From NCBI GenBank assembly GCA_945877595.1, contig CAMDVN010000013.1:1-49713 (forward strand): 49,713 bases of DNA, given 5' to 3'. Numbering within the stretch: position 1 is the stretch's first letter; every line of letters begins with the position of its first letter. The notes under the pieces were generated by a model. The model ran no database searches, was not told where the DNA came from, and saw only the letters and a program-made list of their open reading frames with translations. Made by a program: the position numbers and the translations under genes. This document shows positions 15,821-41,832 of the stretch, one piece after another. Origin of the DNA: Cyanobium sp. NIES-981. Its GTDB lineage: Bacteria; Cyanobacteriota; Cyanobacteriia; PCC-6307; Cyanobiaceae.

Positions 15821-16762
15821 ATGCGTCTTGAGCGGATCTGGCTGATCGTGCGAGCGGGCAGCCAGGCAGCCCAACGCCAGGCACGTCGCTGTGCAGAAGA
15901 CCTGCGCTCCCTGGGGATTGCGGTGGTCACGGCCACCAGTGGGCTGGCCAGCAATCCCTTCCCCGGTCTCCTGGCTACCGAATCGAGCTTGCCTGATCTG
16001 GCTTTGGTGCTGGGCGGCGATGGCACCGTGCTGGGGGCTGCTCGCCATCTGGCGGCCCTGGATGTGCCGATCCTCTGCTTCAACGTGGGTGGCCACCTGG
16101 GCTTCCTCACCCATGAACGGCGTCTGCTGCGGCTCAGTGACCAAGGCGATCACCTCTGGCAGCGCCTGCTCGATGATCGCTTTGCCCTGGAACGGCGCAT
16201 GATGCTGGAGGCTCACGTGGCCCGTGCCGATGCGGCCGGCCCGGTTGCCGAAGACCTCGGCGATTCAGACGGGCCCCATCTGGCCCTCAATGACTTCTAC
16301 TTCCGCCCAAGCCTTGATGAGGTCTCCCCAACTTGCCTGCTGGAGCTGGAGATCGACGGCGAAGTGGTCGACCAGTACCGCGGTGATGGTCTGATCATCG
16401 CCACGCCAACCGGCTCCACCGGCTACGCGATGGCGGCCGGTGGGCCAATCCTGCATCCAGGCATCGAGGCCATCGTGGTCAATCCGATCTGTCCGATGAG
16501 CCTTTCGAGCCGGGCGGTGGTGGTGCCGCCGCGTTCCCATCTCAGCGTATGGCCCCTTGGCGAGGCCACCCGGCGGGTGAAGCTCTGGAAGGACGGTACC
16601 CACGCCACCATGCTCGAACCCGGTGACCGCTGCGTGGTGCAGCGCAGTGAGCATCCGGCCCTGATGGTGGTGCTCGATCAGAATCCCTCCTATTACCGCA
16701 CCCTCACCCGCAAGCTCCACTGGGCCGGCAGTCTCACCGCTGCCGAGCCCTCCCACAACTGA
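15821..16762 (+). CDS. nadK: NAD kinase
   Basis: Makes NADP from NAD with ATP or polyphosphate. The 313-residue product has the diagnostic [12 protein letters not shown] at residues 65-76, the LNDFYF segment (NAD-binding Asn-Asp) and [16 protein letters not shown]. An acidic insertion of about 15 residues ([13 protein letters not shown]) precedes the ND motif. Only 9 bp follow the ndhE stop, a fixed arrangement in marine and freshwater picocyanobacteria as far as I recall. It makes sense functionally, because NADPH pools and NDH-1 activity are linked. Start ATG 15821 gives the normal length. Confidence 0.95.
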
Positions 16763-16783
16763 GTTCACGACTCAATTCTGTAG

Positions 16784-16827
16784 GACTTGTGTAGTACTTG
16801 TGCAGCACTTGTTCAGAACTTGTTCAG
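16784..16827. repeat. 11-bp tandem repeat, 4 copies
   Basis: Four adjoining units (16784-16794, 16795-16805, 16806-16816, 16817-16827) of consensus nACTTGTtCAG in the 105-bp gap between nadK and the CYTH gene. The 11-bp period is about one helical turn, so the ACTTGT cores all face the same side of the DNA. Confidence 0.85.
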
Positions 16828-16867
16828 TTCTGAGGTCAGCACCATTCAGTCGTCTGCGTTTGTTGCC

Positions 16868-17404
16868 ATGGGCCTGGAGATCGAACGCCGTTTTTTGGTG
16901 AGTGGCCAGCAATGGCGCCGCCATGTCTTGTGGAAGGCCCGCTTGCAGCAGGGCTATCTGGCGGCCGGTGCCGATGGCTTCACCCTGCGGGTGCGCAGTA
17001 GCGAGGAGCAGGCCTGGCTCACGATCAAGGCTGCTACCGCCACGGCACCGGGCCTACCCGATGGCCTGGTGCGCCATGAATTCGAGTATGCGATTCCAAT
17101 GGTGGATGCCGAGGCTTTGCTGGATCTGGCGCCCAGCCAGATCAGCAAATGGCGCCATGGTCTTGAGCTGCCGGGAGGTGATTGGGTGCTGGATGTCTTT
17201 GAAGGGCCCAATGCCCCCTTGGTGGTGGCCGAGGTGGAGTTGGTGGCCGCCGACCAGCCCCTCACTGTGCCCTCTTGGTGCGTGCTGGAGCTCACCGGGC
17301 GCCATGAGCTCAGCAATGCCGCCCTCGCCAACCGGCCACTGGCGGCCTGGGAGGCCGGTGACCGCCATGATTTGCTGCAGTGGTGTGTGGCTGCAGGCCC
17401 CTAA
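16868..17404 (+). CDS. CYTH domain protein
   Basis: The CYTH fold is a beta-tunnel that binds triphosphorylated substrates with metal; bacterial members hydrolyse tripolyphosphate, thiamine triphosphate or make cAMP. The 178-residue product starts MGLEIERRF, where the family signature is ExExK; here the lysine position is Arg (E4, E6, R8). Further conserved parts are the LRVRSS strand, LTIKA, and VLDVFEG/AEVEL strands with acidic residues. I chose ATG 16868 because the signature must be close to the N-terminus; the frame is open upstream through the 11-bp repeat. Substrate unknown. The stop overlaps the stop of the convergent LuxR-type gene. Confidence 0.88.
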   Translation: MGLEIERRFLVSGQQWRRHVLWKARLQQGYLAAGADGFTLRVRSSEEQAWLTIKAATATAPGLPDGLVRHEFEYAIPMVDAEALLDLAPSQISKWRHGLELPGGDWVLDVFEGPNAPLVVAEVELVAADQPLTVPSWCVLELTGRHELSNAALANRPLAAWEAGDRHDLLQWCVAAGP

Positions 17405-17763
17405 GACCGGCTGGCACCGGCTTCAGGCGATCCTGGGTTGATGGCACAACAATTGAAACCGTCGCGGCAGATCTTGCCGTGATCCATGGCCCAATTCAGC
17501 AGCCCCACCCTGTTTTTGGCACCGGTCTTTGTGAAAATGTTGCTGACGTGGTTATCAACGGTGCGCTTGCTGATCGTCAGCGCCACGGCGATTTCCTGAT
17601 TCGTGAGCCCCTGAGCGACCTGATCAATGATTTCGATTTCGCGTTCGGAAAGGTCGCCGCGGTGATCGACTGGGCGTTCGGTGCGCTGATCGCCTAGGCG
17701 ATCGTTTTGCAGATCGCCTAGGCGATCGGTGCGCTGATCACGTCTTACCCCGGCGCTATCCAT
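17401..17763 (-). CDS. pedR: LuxR-type regulator, PedR-like
   Basis: A small regulator of 120 residues with only a LuxR/NarL-type DNA-binding domain at about 38-97: LSEREIEIIDQVAQGLTNQEIAVALTISKRTVDNHVSNIFTK. There is no receiver domain. Such lone-HTH LuxR proteins in cyanobacteria include PedR, which responds to photosynthetic electron transport through redox change; two adjacent cysteines occur near the C-terminus (C104-C105 in GFNCC), as well as C99. I infer PedR from size, the 'KTGAKNRVGLLNWAMDHGKICRDGFNCC' tail and the metF neighbourhood. The first 36 residues are encoded by repeats and palindromes and have no family counterpart. ATG 17763 was chosen; the frame remains open upstream but is antisense to metF. 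Confidence 0.8.
   Translation of the reverse strand: MDSAGVRRDQRTDRLGDLQNDRLGDQRTERPVDHRGDLSEREIEIIDQVAQGLTNQEIAVALTISKRTVDNHVSNIFTKTGAKNRVGLLNWAMDHGKICRDGFNCCAINPGSPEAGASRS
17679..17740. repeat. two 16-bp palindromes within a repeated segment
   Basis: The perfect palindrome GATCGCCTAGGCGATC occurs at 17688-17703 and 17712-17727, 8 bp apart, and is flanked on both sides by GGTGCGCTGATC (17680-17691 and 17728-17739, approximately). The whole tract lies in the 5' part of the PedR-like gene. It includes the GCGATC core also found in the HIP1 octamer of cyanobacteria. Confidence 0.85.
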
Positions 17764-17835
17764 GCGTCCACCGCACAGGTGCTCAATGCACTGTAGGCAG
17801 ATGGACCTGCATCTTGGTGTCGATTCGCCCAGCTC

Positions 17836-18816
17836 GTGTCGCATGATGGGAATCCACGCCAGCCCTCCGGTTTGTTGCTGCAACAGGCTCTTGATGCCGG
17901 TGCCTTTGCCCTCACGGCTGAGGTCACCCCCCCGCGTGGGGGCGACCCACGCCGCACCCTTGACGCGGCAAGGGCCCTGCAGGGCTTGGTGCATGCGGTC
18001 AATGTGACGGATGGCAGCCGGGCCGTGATGCGCATGAGCAGTTTGGCGGTGTGCAAGCTCCTGCTCGATCAGGGGATCGAGCCGGTCTTGCAAATGGCCT
18101 GCCGAGATCGCAACCGGATCGCTCTTCAGGCCGACCTGCTCGGCGCCCATGCCCTCGGGCTGCGCAACCTGCTCTGTCTCACTGGTGACCCGGTGCGTGC
18201 CGGTGACCAGCCAGGCGCCCGCCCGGTCCATGAGCTCGAATCGGTGCGGTTGTTGCAGCTCGTGGCCCAGCTCAATCAGGGTCACGATCCGGTCAAGGGG
18301 GACCTCCCCGACGGCGGCACGGCCTTTTTTGCTGGTGCCGCTGCCGATCCCAGCTCACCGAGCACCAGTGGTCTTAAAGCCCGCCTGCGGCGCAAACAAG
18401 AAGCTGGAGCACGCTTTGTCCAGACCCAAATGGTGATGGATCTCGAGACGTTGCGACGCTTTGTGGGGGAGATCGCCGCCCCGATGGGGTTGCCGGTGCT
18501 GGCCGGCGTCTTTCTGCTCAAATCAGCCAAGAACGCCAGCTTTATCAACCGGGTGGTGCCCGGTGTGGCCATTCCCCAGGCGGTGATTGATCGCCTCGCC
18601 GCCGCTCTTGACCCTGCGGCCGAGGGGATTGCGATCGCCGCTGAGCAGGTGGCCGCCTACCGGCACGTCGCCCAGGGGGTGCATTTGATGGCGATCAAGG
18701 CCGAAGAGCGGATCCCGGCAATCCTGCGCCAGGCAGGGGTCGAGCCCCTAGCTGGCGGCGATGTTCAGGGCCAGATCGGTGCCGAGCAACTCGGCCAGGG
18801 CCTTCTGCTGCGGTGA
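17836..18816 (+). CDS. metF: 5,10-methylenetetrahydrofolate reductase
   Basis: Reduces methylene-THF to methyl-THF for methionine synthesis; FAD-dependent TIM barrel. The 326-residue product has the family signatures FALTAEVTPPRGGDP near the start (catalytic Glu), LLCLTGDPV, and a QTQMVMDLE segment with the barrel end AGVFLLKSAKNASFINRVVPGV. The start is GTG 17836; the nearby ATG is out of frame. It diverges from the PedR-like gene with 72 bp between starts. The last 23 codons are antisense to the end of the nucleotidyltransferase gene and give an unconserved tail (GGDVQGQIGAEQLGQGLLLR). Confidence 0.93.
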   Translation: MSHDGNPRQPSGLLLQQALDAGAFALTAEVTPPRGGDPRRTLDAARALQGLVHAVNVTDGSRAVMRMSSLAVCKLLLDQGIEPVLQMACRDRNRIALQADLLGAHALGLRNLLCLTGDPVRAGDQPGARPVHELESVRLLQLVAQLNQGHDPVKGDLPDGGTAFFAGAAADPSSPSTSGLKARLRRKQEAGARFVQTQMVMDLETLRRFVGEIAAPMGLPVLAGVFLLKSAKNASFINRVVPGVAIPQAVIDRLAAALDPAAEGIAIAAEQVAAYRHVAQGVHLMAIKAEERIPAILRQAGVEPLAGGDVQGQIGAEQLGQGLLLR

Positions 18817-19932
18817 GGGCTCGGCCACGTCTTGCCGGCGTACGTCGGTGATCAGCCAGTCGAGGGCCGCTTCCTGCAGGTCGAAGTGGTCGCCGTTGCG
18901 GTCAACGCAGTAGCGGCCAAAGACGAGCTTTTCAACCAGGCGCACTCCGGCCCCGATGCGTGAATAGTCAAAGATGATCGAGTTGTCGATCGTGGCGCCC
19001 TCACAGATGTGGCAGCTGGGGCCAATCATGGCAGGGCCGATGATGGTGGCACCGTCTTCGATGCGGGTCATGCCGCCCACGTAGATGGGGCCCTGCACGC
19101 TGATCTTGTCCCAGTTGGCGGCCACGTTGAGCCCGGTGTAGATGCCTGGTCTCACCTCATGGCCTGGAATCTGCACCTGCCGCACGTGGCCTTGCAGCAC
19201 ACTTCTGATGGCTTGCCAATAATCAGGTACTTTGCCGATGTCGACCCACTCGAATTCCATCGGCAAGGCGTAGAAGGGGGCCCCGGCGGCCACCAGCTTC
19301 GGGAAGAGATCCGAGCCAATGTCAAACGGCACGCCCTCTGGCACAAAGTCGAGCACCTCGGGCTCGAAAATGTAGATGCCCGTGTTGATCATGTCGCTGG
19401 CGGCGTCGGCCACGTCGGGCTTCTCCTGGAAGGAGCGCACCCGGCCCTGCTCGTCGGTGACGACGACGCCGTAGCTGCTCACCTGCTCCATGGGCACCCG
19501 CTTGGTGATCAAGCTGGCCAGGGCTCCTTTGGCCTTGTGGCGCCGCACGGCCTCGGTGAGATCGAGGTCGATCAGGGCGTCGCCGCAGAGCACCACAAAG
19601 GTGTCATCAAAGAAGGGCTGGAAGCTCTGGATCTTTTTGAGCCCACCGGCTGAACCCATCGCTTCGCCGATCAGCTGACCGTCTTCGATGCGCCCTTCGA
19701 AGCTGTATGCGATCTGGACGCCGAAGCGCTGGCCATCGCGAAAGTAGTTCTCGATCTCCTCGGCCAGGTGGGAGACGTTGACCATGATTTCGTTGAAGCC
19801 GTGCTCCCGCAGTAGCTCCAGCAGAAACTCCATCACTGGTTTCTGCAGGATCGGGATCATCGGCTTCGGGATGGTGTGCGTGATGGGACGCACCCGTGTT
19901 CCCTTGCCGGCCGCCAGGATCATCGCCTTCAT
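18748..19932 (-). CDS. sugar-phosphate nucleotidyltransferase (GDP-mannose pyrophosphorylase-like)
   Basis: Makes a nucleotide sugar from NTP and sugar-1-phosphate. The 394-residue product has an N-terminal nucleotidyltransferase domain (MILAAGKGTRVRPITHTIPKPMIPILQKP, residues 4-32, with the K that binds the substrate phosphate), the LCGDAL metal-binding Asp, FQEKPD and WVDIGKVPDYW, then a C-terminal left-handed beta-helix region (IYVGGMTRIEDGATIIGPAMIGPSCHICEGATI). Homologues are annotated as mannose-1-phosphate guanylyltransferase or glucose-1-phosphate transferases; the sugar cannot be read from the sequence. ATG 19932 is clear. Its 3' end overlaps metF by 69 bp on the opposite strand. Confidence 0.92.
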   Translation of the reverse strand: MKAMILAAGKGTRVRPITHTIPKPMIPILQKPVMEFLLELLREHGFNEIMVNVSHLAEEIENYFRDGQRFGVQIAYSFEGRIEDGQLIGEAMGSAGGLKKIQSFQPFFDDTFVVLCGDALIDLDLTEAVRRHKAKGALASLITKRVPMEQVSSYGVVVTDEQGRVRSFQEKPDVADAASDMINTGIYIFEPEVLDFVPEGVPFDIGSDLFPKLVAAGAPFYALPMEFEWVDIGKVPDYWQAIRSVLQGHVRQVQIPGHEVRPGIYTGLNVAANWDKISVQGPIYVGGMTRIEDGATIIGPAMIGPSCHICEGATIDNSIIFDYSRIGAGVRLVEKLVFGRYCVDRNGDHFDLQEAALDWLITDVRRQDVAEPSPQQKALAELLGTDLALNIAAS

Positions 19933-41689: not shown

Positions 41690-41745
41690 AGGGATCGGGG
41701 CTCAGCCTGGCTTCAATGGCTTCGGCTGGGTAGTCAGCCAACAGT

Positions 41746-41832
41746 GGTCAGCCAAGAGATCACAGCAAAGAGAGCTCAAGCAAAGAGAGCTCAAGCAAAA
41801 GAGCTCAGTCAAGAGAGCTCAGCCAAGAGAGA
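41746..41832. repeat. 14- to 16-bp tandem repeat, about 6 copies
   Basis: Six adjoining units of the form gyCAAGAGAGCTCA or AGCAAAGAGAGCTCA between about 41746 and 41832, in the spacer downstream of radA and ycf3. The unit contains GAGCTC. The last unit runs into the hairpin that follows. Confidence 0.85.

Follow-up and report, generated by a model that had tools for sequence, protein, structure and literature searches.

The two identical 16-bp palindromes near the 5′ end of the pedR coding sequence are, at a probability that we put at roughly 0.85, incidental to a short in-frame tandem repeat, that is, a coding minisatellite, in the disordered N-terminal tail of PedR, a regulator of the response to light and redox state. 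The gene lies in a stretch of 49,713 nt from Cyanobium sp. NIES-981, here called the window, and its features are collected in Table 1. The repeat keeps the reading frame, the tail differs in length among congeneric species, the exact palindrome has no further copy in the genome searched, and many similar arrays occur in a sample of the same genome. In our view the repeat most likely reflects genome change of an ordinary kind and not a mobile element or a demonstrated control site, and we suggest that the PedR tail would have been lengthened in a near-neutral manner by an in-frame duplication that probably arose through replication slippage or unequal recombination.

Table 1. Features of the pedR–metF region, in window positions.
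Feature	Position	Strand	Basis
pedR, LuxR-type regulator, 120 aa; ATG at 17763 is the assumed start	17401..17763	-	NCBIfam, Pfam, translation
Three 24-bp in-frame repeat units (DQRTDRLG, DLQNDRLG, DQRTERPV)	17668..17739	-	TRF, repeat search, unit identities
Fourth unit DHRGDLSE, worn; extends into helix 1 of the HTH domain	17644..17667	-	unit identities; helix in the model
Palindrome GATCGCCTAGGCGATC, copy 1	17688..17703	none	exact pattern match
Palindrome GATCGCCTAGGCGATC, copy 2	17712..17727	none	exact pattern match
Predicted mRNA hairpin, 16-bp stem and 8-nt loop, pedR codons 13-26	17688..17727	-	folding
Conserved element CTGCCTACAGTG, metF–pedR intergenic, not part of the repeat	17789..17800	-	comparison of homologous regions
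metF (methylenetetrahydrofolate reductase), divergent neighbour; GTG at 17836 is the assumed start	17836..18816	+	Pfam MTHFR, 167.8 bits

The tandem repeat and its palindromes

The protein scores 131.8 bits against the NCBIfam model NF052366 (photon_PedR), above the curated cut-off of 120, which bears out the description of the gene as PedR-like in an earlier note on this DNA. Its LuxR-type helix-turn-helix (HTH) domain is recognized by Pfam GerE at 66 bits. In an AlphaFold model (41 sequences) residues 1-35 are without secondary structure and almost all have a pLDDT below 50, a helix begins at residue 40, and the HTH reaches about 90. PedR is characterized by a redox-active cysteine near the C-terminus and by thioredoxin control. 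In the window protein Cys99, Cys105 and Cys106 are invariant across the 41 aligned sequences, and they might include a counterpart of Cys80 of Synechocystis PedR, which an excerpt of PMC13421787 names.

The same note had described twin perfect 16-bp palindromes 8 bp apart and within flanking repeats, and both parts of this description proved correct. The palindrome GATCGCCTAGGCGATC occurs twice at that spacing, and the flanking repeats belong to a 24-bp tandem array of 3.4 copies at 17659-17739, to which TRF gives a score of 106. As 24 bp correspond to eight codons, each unit encodes eight residues, and the reading frame is open throughout the array. The three clear units match one another at 20 (units 1 and 2), 21 (units 1 and 3) and 17 (units 2 and 3) of 24 positions, and the worn fourth unit, which enters the HTH, matches units 1, 2 and 3 at 13, 10 and 14 of 24, respectively. 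The term "amplified", one of two origins proposed earlier, therefore fits in the sense that part of the coding sequence was duplicated in tandem.

The composition of the units accounts for the palindromes. The second half of the unit, GATCGCCTAGGC (Asp-Arg-Leu-Gly), is identical in units 1 and 2, while the first half, GATCAGCGCACC, is identical in units 1 and 3. Since each palindrome consists of the half-unit GATCGCCTAGGC and the GATC that opens the next unit, the pair amounts to one chance palindrome and a duplication: the half-unit and the following GATC would have made a perfect palindrome by chance, and the duplication would then have doubled it.

How unusual the pair appears depends on what is counted. 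In dinucleotide shuffles of the window, GATCGCCTAGGCGATC is matched at two mismatches or fewer 0.01 times on average, and the arms, when taken as an inverted repeat, reach 26 nt at 85% complementarity. The palindrome copies are not independent, however, because both are units of one tandem repeat, and perfect 16-bp palindromes are commonplace here: 400 kb of other DNA from the same genome hold 29, against 11.3 expected from base composition, which corresponds to 3.6 per window length, and the window itself has six, the pair included. In the genome-wide count that the earlier note had called for, exact copies of this 16-mer are confined to these two in the genome searched. Tandem duplication accounts for the second copy, and likewise for the finding that an identical 16-bp palindrome pair within 200 bp is seen only this once in 449,713 bases of the genome.

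The codons chosen in the palindrome could be read as a hint at selection for the DNA sequence itself. The palindrome uses CTA, a rare leucine codon (2.2% of leucine codons), it contains CTAG, which is scarce in the sampled 449,713 bases (260 against 1487 by base composition), and the chance that DRLGD plus a further C would be encoded as GATCGCCTAGGCGATC under the codon use of the genome is about 0.15%. As this chance was calculated after the fact, we take the hint to be weak at most. In the same sample GATC is over-represented, with 3817 occurrences against 1487 by base composition.

Arrays of this kind are abundant in the genome. TRF reports 116 arrays with a score of at least 50 in 400 kb, or 29.0 per 100 kb, against 25.0 in the congener G005 (80 kb), 10.0 in G004 (160 kb), 5.0 in G002 (60 kb) and 10.0 in G050 (100 kb); at a score of at least 80 the densities are 8.0 against 3.7, 0.6, 0 and 1.0, in the same order. 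Short tandem repeats thus seem to be denser in this genome than in the four relatives, with the reservation that the samples of the latter are small, at 60 to 160 kb each, and that G005 comes near at score 50. The pedR array is among the 20 of 168 TRF rows that score at least 100 in 449,713 bases, where rows can overlap. Among 139 arrays from the sample and the window, the period is divisible by three in 69 of the 77 inside open reading frames called by script, as against 28 of the 62 outside. The abundance of arrays and their in-frame periods within reading frames support in-frame slippage or unequal recombination as the ordinary origin of the repeat. The highest-scoring array of the window is a 14-bp tandem array of 6.9 copies at 41734-41831, outside the script-called open reading frames.

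Variation of the PedR tail among relatives

A match to pedR is present in all six genomes of the genus, the window's own included, and at an E-value of 1e-25 or better in 139 of 151 genomes of the family, among them all 94 of high quality. We read the tails at 111 loci, made up of the best 80 of 231 matches, 25 family loci among the best matches (L042-L066) and six from the genus. Distinct upstream DNA was found at 96 of these loci, and the start could be placed via a conserved upstream element in 66 of the 96 regions; two had no start in range and 28 lacked the element in place.

With 37 residues before the LSERE motif, the window protein has the longest tail of the 66 measured, the other 65 ranging from 2 to 32 residues, and it is also the most repetitive of them. 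The earlier note had taken the N-terminal extension to be absent from the usual PedR and had suggested an alignment of homologues to see if it is unique. This is right in part only: the measured homologues do have a tail in that place, which varies in both length and sequence, and the window's tail is the extreme case among them. The HTH and the stretch that follows it are, unlike the tail, highly conserved among the aligned homologues.

Within the genus the six tails measure 37 (window), 25, 25, 17, 14 and 9 residues. Of the five congeners, two (L016 and L017) carry period-4 repeats of the type [DE]xRx in their tails, SIRTEVRTELRTELRSDLSE and EVHTELRPELRGELSE, and the other three have a single four-residue step ahead of [DE]LSE. 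The repeat units of the congeners differ in sequence from those of the window. They stand out more clearly in the protein than in the DNA, since a repeat search returned no 12-bp family for either L016 or L017. When 42 tails were ranked by self-similarity at a lag of 12 or 24, L015 came first, L016 shared second place with L048, a locus outside the genus, and L017 was fourth. From the range of 9 to 37 residues and the differing repeats it follows that tail length and repeat number vary between species; copy number thus differs among close relatives at the level of congeneric species, as judged from six genomes.

Other picocyanobacterial PedR tails contain Ser-Pro runs, SPSPSP in L072 and L080 and SPSPS in L087, L092 and L093, which represent another simple-sequence stretch within the tail. 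A search of the literature by titles and abstract openings returned no work on repeats in PedR tails, a scope that does not prove their absence from the literature.

Possible roles as control site, RNA structure or mobile element

According to an excerpt of a review (PMC13421787), Synechocystis PedR represses its own operon and binds RWWTRGGYNNYY, and the earlier note had offered the palindromes as an operator for the regulator or for metF. An operator pair for PedR autoregulation or for the divergent metF, placed within the beginning of the pedR coding sequence, can draw on the sequence TAGGCGATC in each palindrome, which fits the TRGGYNNYY part of the published motif on both strands and so gives four matches in 40 bp; yet the RWW part is unmatched, and the window has no complete motif either upstream of pedR or in the 5′ part of the gene. 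The 310-nt region of the window has six TRGGYNNYY cores against an average of 0.6 over 96 regions, but across these 96 homologous regions the core is found 60 times, as compared with 61.8 in mononucleotide shuffles, the full motif once, as compared with 4.0, and the corresponding regions of the five congeners have 0, 0, 0, 0 and 1 core matches. The distance from the ends of the palindromes to the assumed metF start, 109-148 bp, can be counted in favour of an operator. Their sequence, however, is found nowhere else in exact form: the genome (2,574,571 bases searched, 88.58% complete) contains two exact copies of GATCGCCTAGGCGATC, both in pedR, and none of the 299 other sampled genomes of the family contains any, so that its own genome stands alone among 300. 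This distribution argues that GATCGCCTAGGCGATC is neither a dispersed element nor a conserved operator. One place with one mismatch and 11 with two make up 12 near copies elsewhere in the genome, against two places at two mismatches or fewer for the reversed pattern, which is a poor control as it contains CTAG twice. All 12 lie within stop-free frames of 225-754 codons (frames, not confirmed genes), which also speaks against operators. We consider an operator role for the palindromes highly improbable.

A conserved element sits between metF and pedR instead. It lies within the 72 bp gap that separates the two genes, 25 nt before the pedR start, and 64 of the 96 distinct regions agree with CTGCCTACAGTG at 11 or more of its 12 bases, whereas one shuffle of each never exceeds 10. 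The motif was chosen from the congeners; 58 of the 64 matching regions are from outside the genus, many of them close relatives of one another. An exact search for CTGCCTA(C/G)AGTG in 61 family genomes gave matches in 17 and none in 44. Its 21 exact places comprise nine at pedR (the own genome and eight others) and 12 elsewhere, and as the reversed control yields 11, the places away from pedR represent background; the own genome has one exact copy, at pedR. TACAGT or TAGAGT within the element could be the −10 box of pedR, and on the opposite strand the element carries TAGGC, that is, the TRGGY core. CTGCCTA(C/G)AGTG is a better candidate than the palindromes for the regulation of pedR, and a putative site for PedR binding.

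The palindrome pair also predicts a conspicuous structure in the mRNA, and the 16-bp hairpin might act there by lowering or regulating pedR translation or mRNA stability. Folding gives a z-score of −5.2 for the 16-bp stem with its 8-nt loop over 196 nt, and of −8.0, with 60 shuffles, for the first 120 nt of pedR. The latter is the lowest of 66 homologues and an outlier among them, the next-lowest values being −3.5 and −3.2 in the congeners L018 and L020. Any closely duplicated palindrome automatically gives a strong stem, however, and the 16-mer is restricted to one genome among the 300 sampled. The usual footprint of translation initiation ends before 36 nt past the start codon, and the hairpin starts at that distance, outside the footprint. 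We therefore regard a function in RNA as very unlikely, while the stable hairpin predicted near the start of the pedR message could, as far as folding tells, slow translation as a side effect of the repeat. A search of Rfam over 16500-18900 returned two animal microRNA precursors, mir-341 and mir-679, both far below their gathering scores; the mir-341 match covers the palindromes, and we attribute it to a fortuitous resemblance of the hairpin.

A control site specific to this lineage is a further reading, in which PedR dimers on four TAGGC half-sites, or alternatively the RNA hairpin, would provide the regulator with a new brake on its own expression, one that arose when part of its own coding sequence was duplicated in tandem. 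We think this very unlikely.

The earlier note had also considered an inserted element and a relation to HIP1 (GCGATCGC). A mobile or iterated palindromic element inserted in the gene, REP-like or derived from HIP1, would be palindromic, contain GATC and could lie within coding sequence, as the 16-mer does, and the 12 imperfect copies elsewhere in the genome might be counted in its favour. Dispersed copies are expected of a REP-like element, and exact ones are absent from the rest of the genome searched (88.6% complete), where both exact copies are in pedR; on copy number, with 0 of 299 other family genomes positive, an inserted mobile element was rejected. The repeat is moreover in frame, with an eight-codon period, in a place where two congeners have in-frame period-4 repeats. 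With regard to HIP1, the genome sample has many copies of GGCGATC (227 against 50 expected from base composition) and also of the extended HIP1 form GGCGATCGCC (13 against 1.6), but HIP1 itself, at about 110 per Mb, does not exceed the maximal-order Markov estimate: the sample has 46 copies, about three times the 15.8 expected from base composition, as against 52 by the Markov estimate. The 2.57 Mb of the genome hold 282 copies, compared with 13152 in the HIP1-rich genome G300 and with 16 for the reversed pattern, a poor control as it contains the scarce CTAG. An excerpt of PMC4390886 assigns low HIP1 numbers to the Prochlorococcus/Synechococcus group. Since GCGATCGC is missing from the 16-mer and the genome is not among the HIP1-rich ones, an origin from HIP1 was rejected too, and a mobile or HIP1-derived element is barely credible as an explanation for the pair.

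Comparison with known systems

We favor the coding minisatellite as the explanation for the pair, and the case carries a caution, namely that in-frame repeat expansion in a disordered tail can produce a striking pair of palindromes without an operator role. The conserved metF–pedR element is the better place to seek the regulation of this redox regulator, and the genome of this picocyanobacterium seems to hold many short tandem repeats.

PedR of Synechocystis PCC 6803 (ssl0564) is a LuxR-type HTH regulator, and the window protein, which passes the NCBIfam cut-off for PedR, resembles it in this respect. It would differ in its long repetitive N-terminal tail. HIP1 is likewise a palindrome with GATC, and GGCGATC, which forms each half of the 16-mer, is part of its extended form; HIP1, however, is an 8-bp site with thousands of copies in HIP1-rich genomes, whereas the 16-mer has a central CCTAGG and two copies. 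Bacterial coding minisatellites, or in-frame tandem repeats of proteins, are another close likeness. As in these, the unit is short, its period is divisible by three, it lies in a tail of predicted disorder, related species differ in the length and repeats of that tail, and many similar arrays are found in the genome sample. The difference is that the units in pedR have already diverged, so that only about three are still clear.
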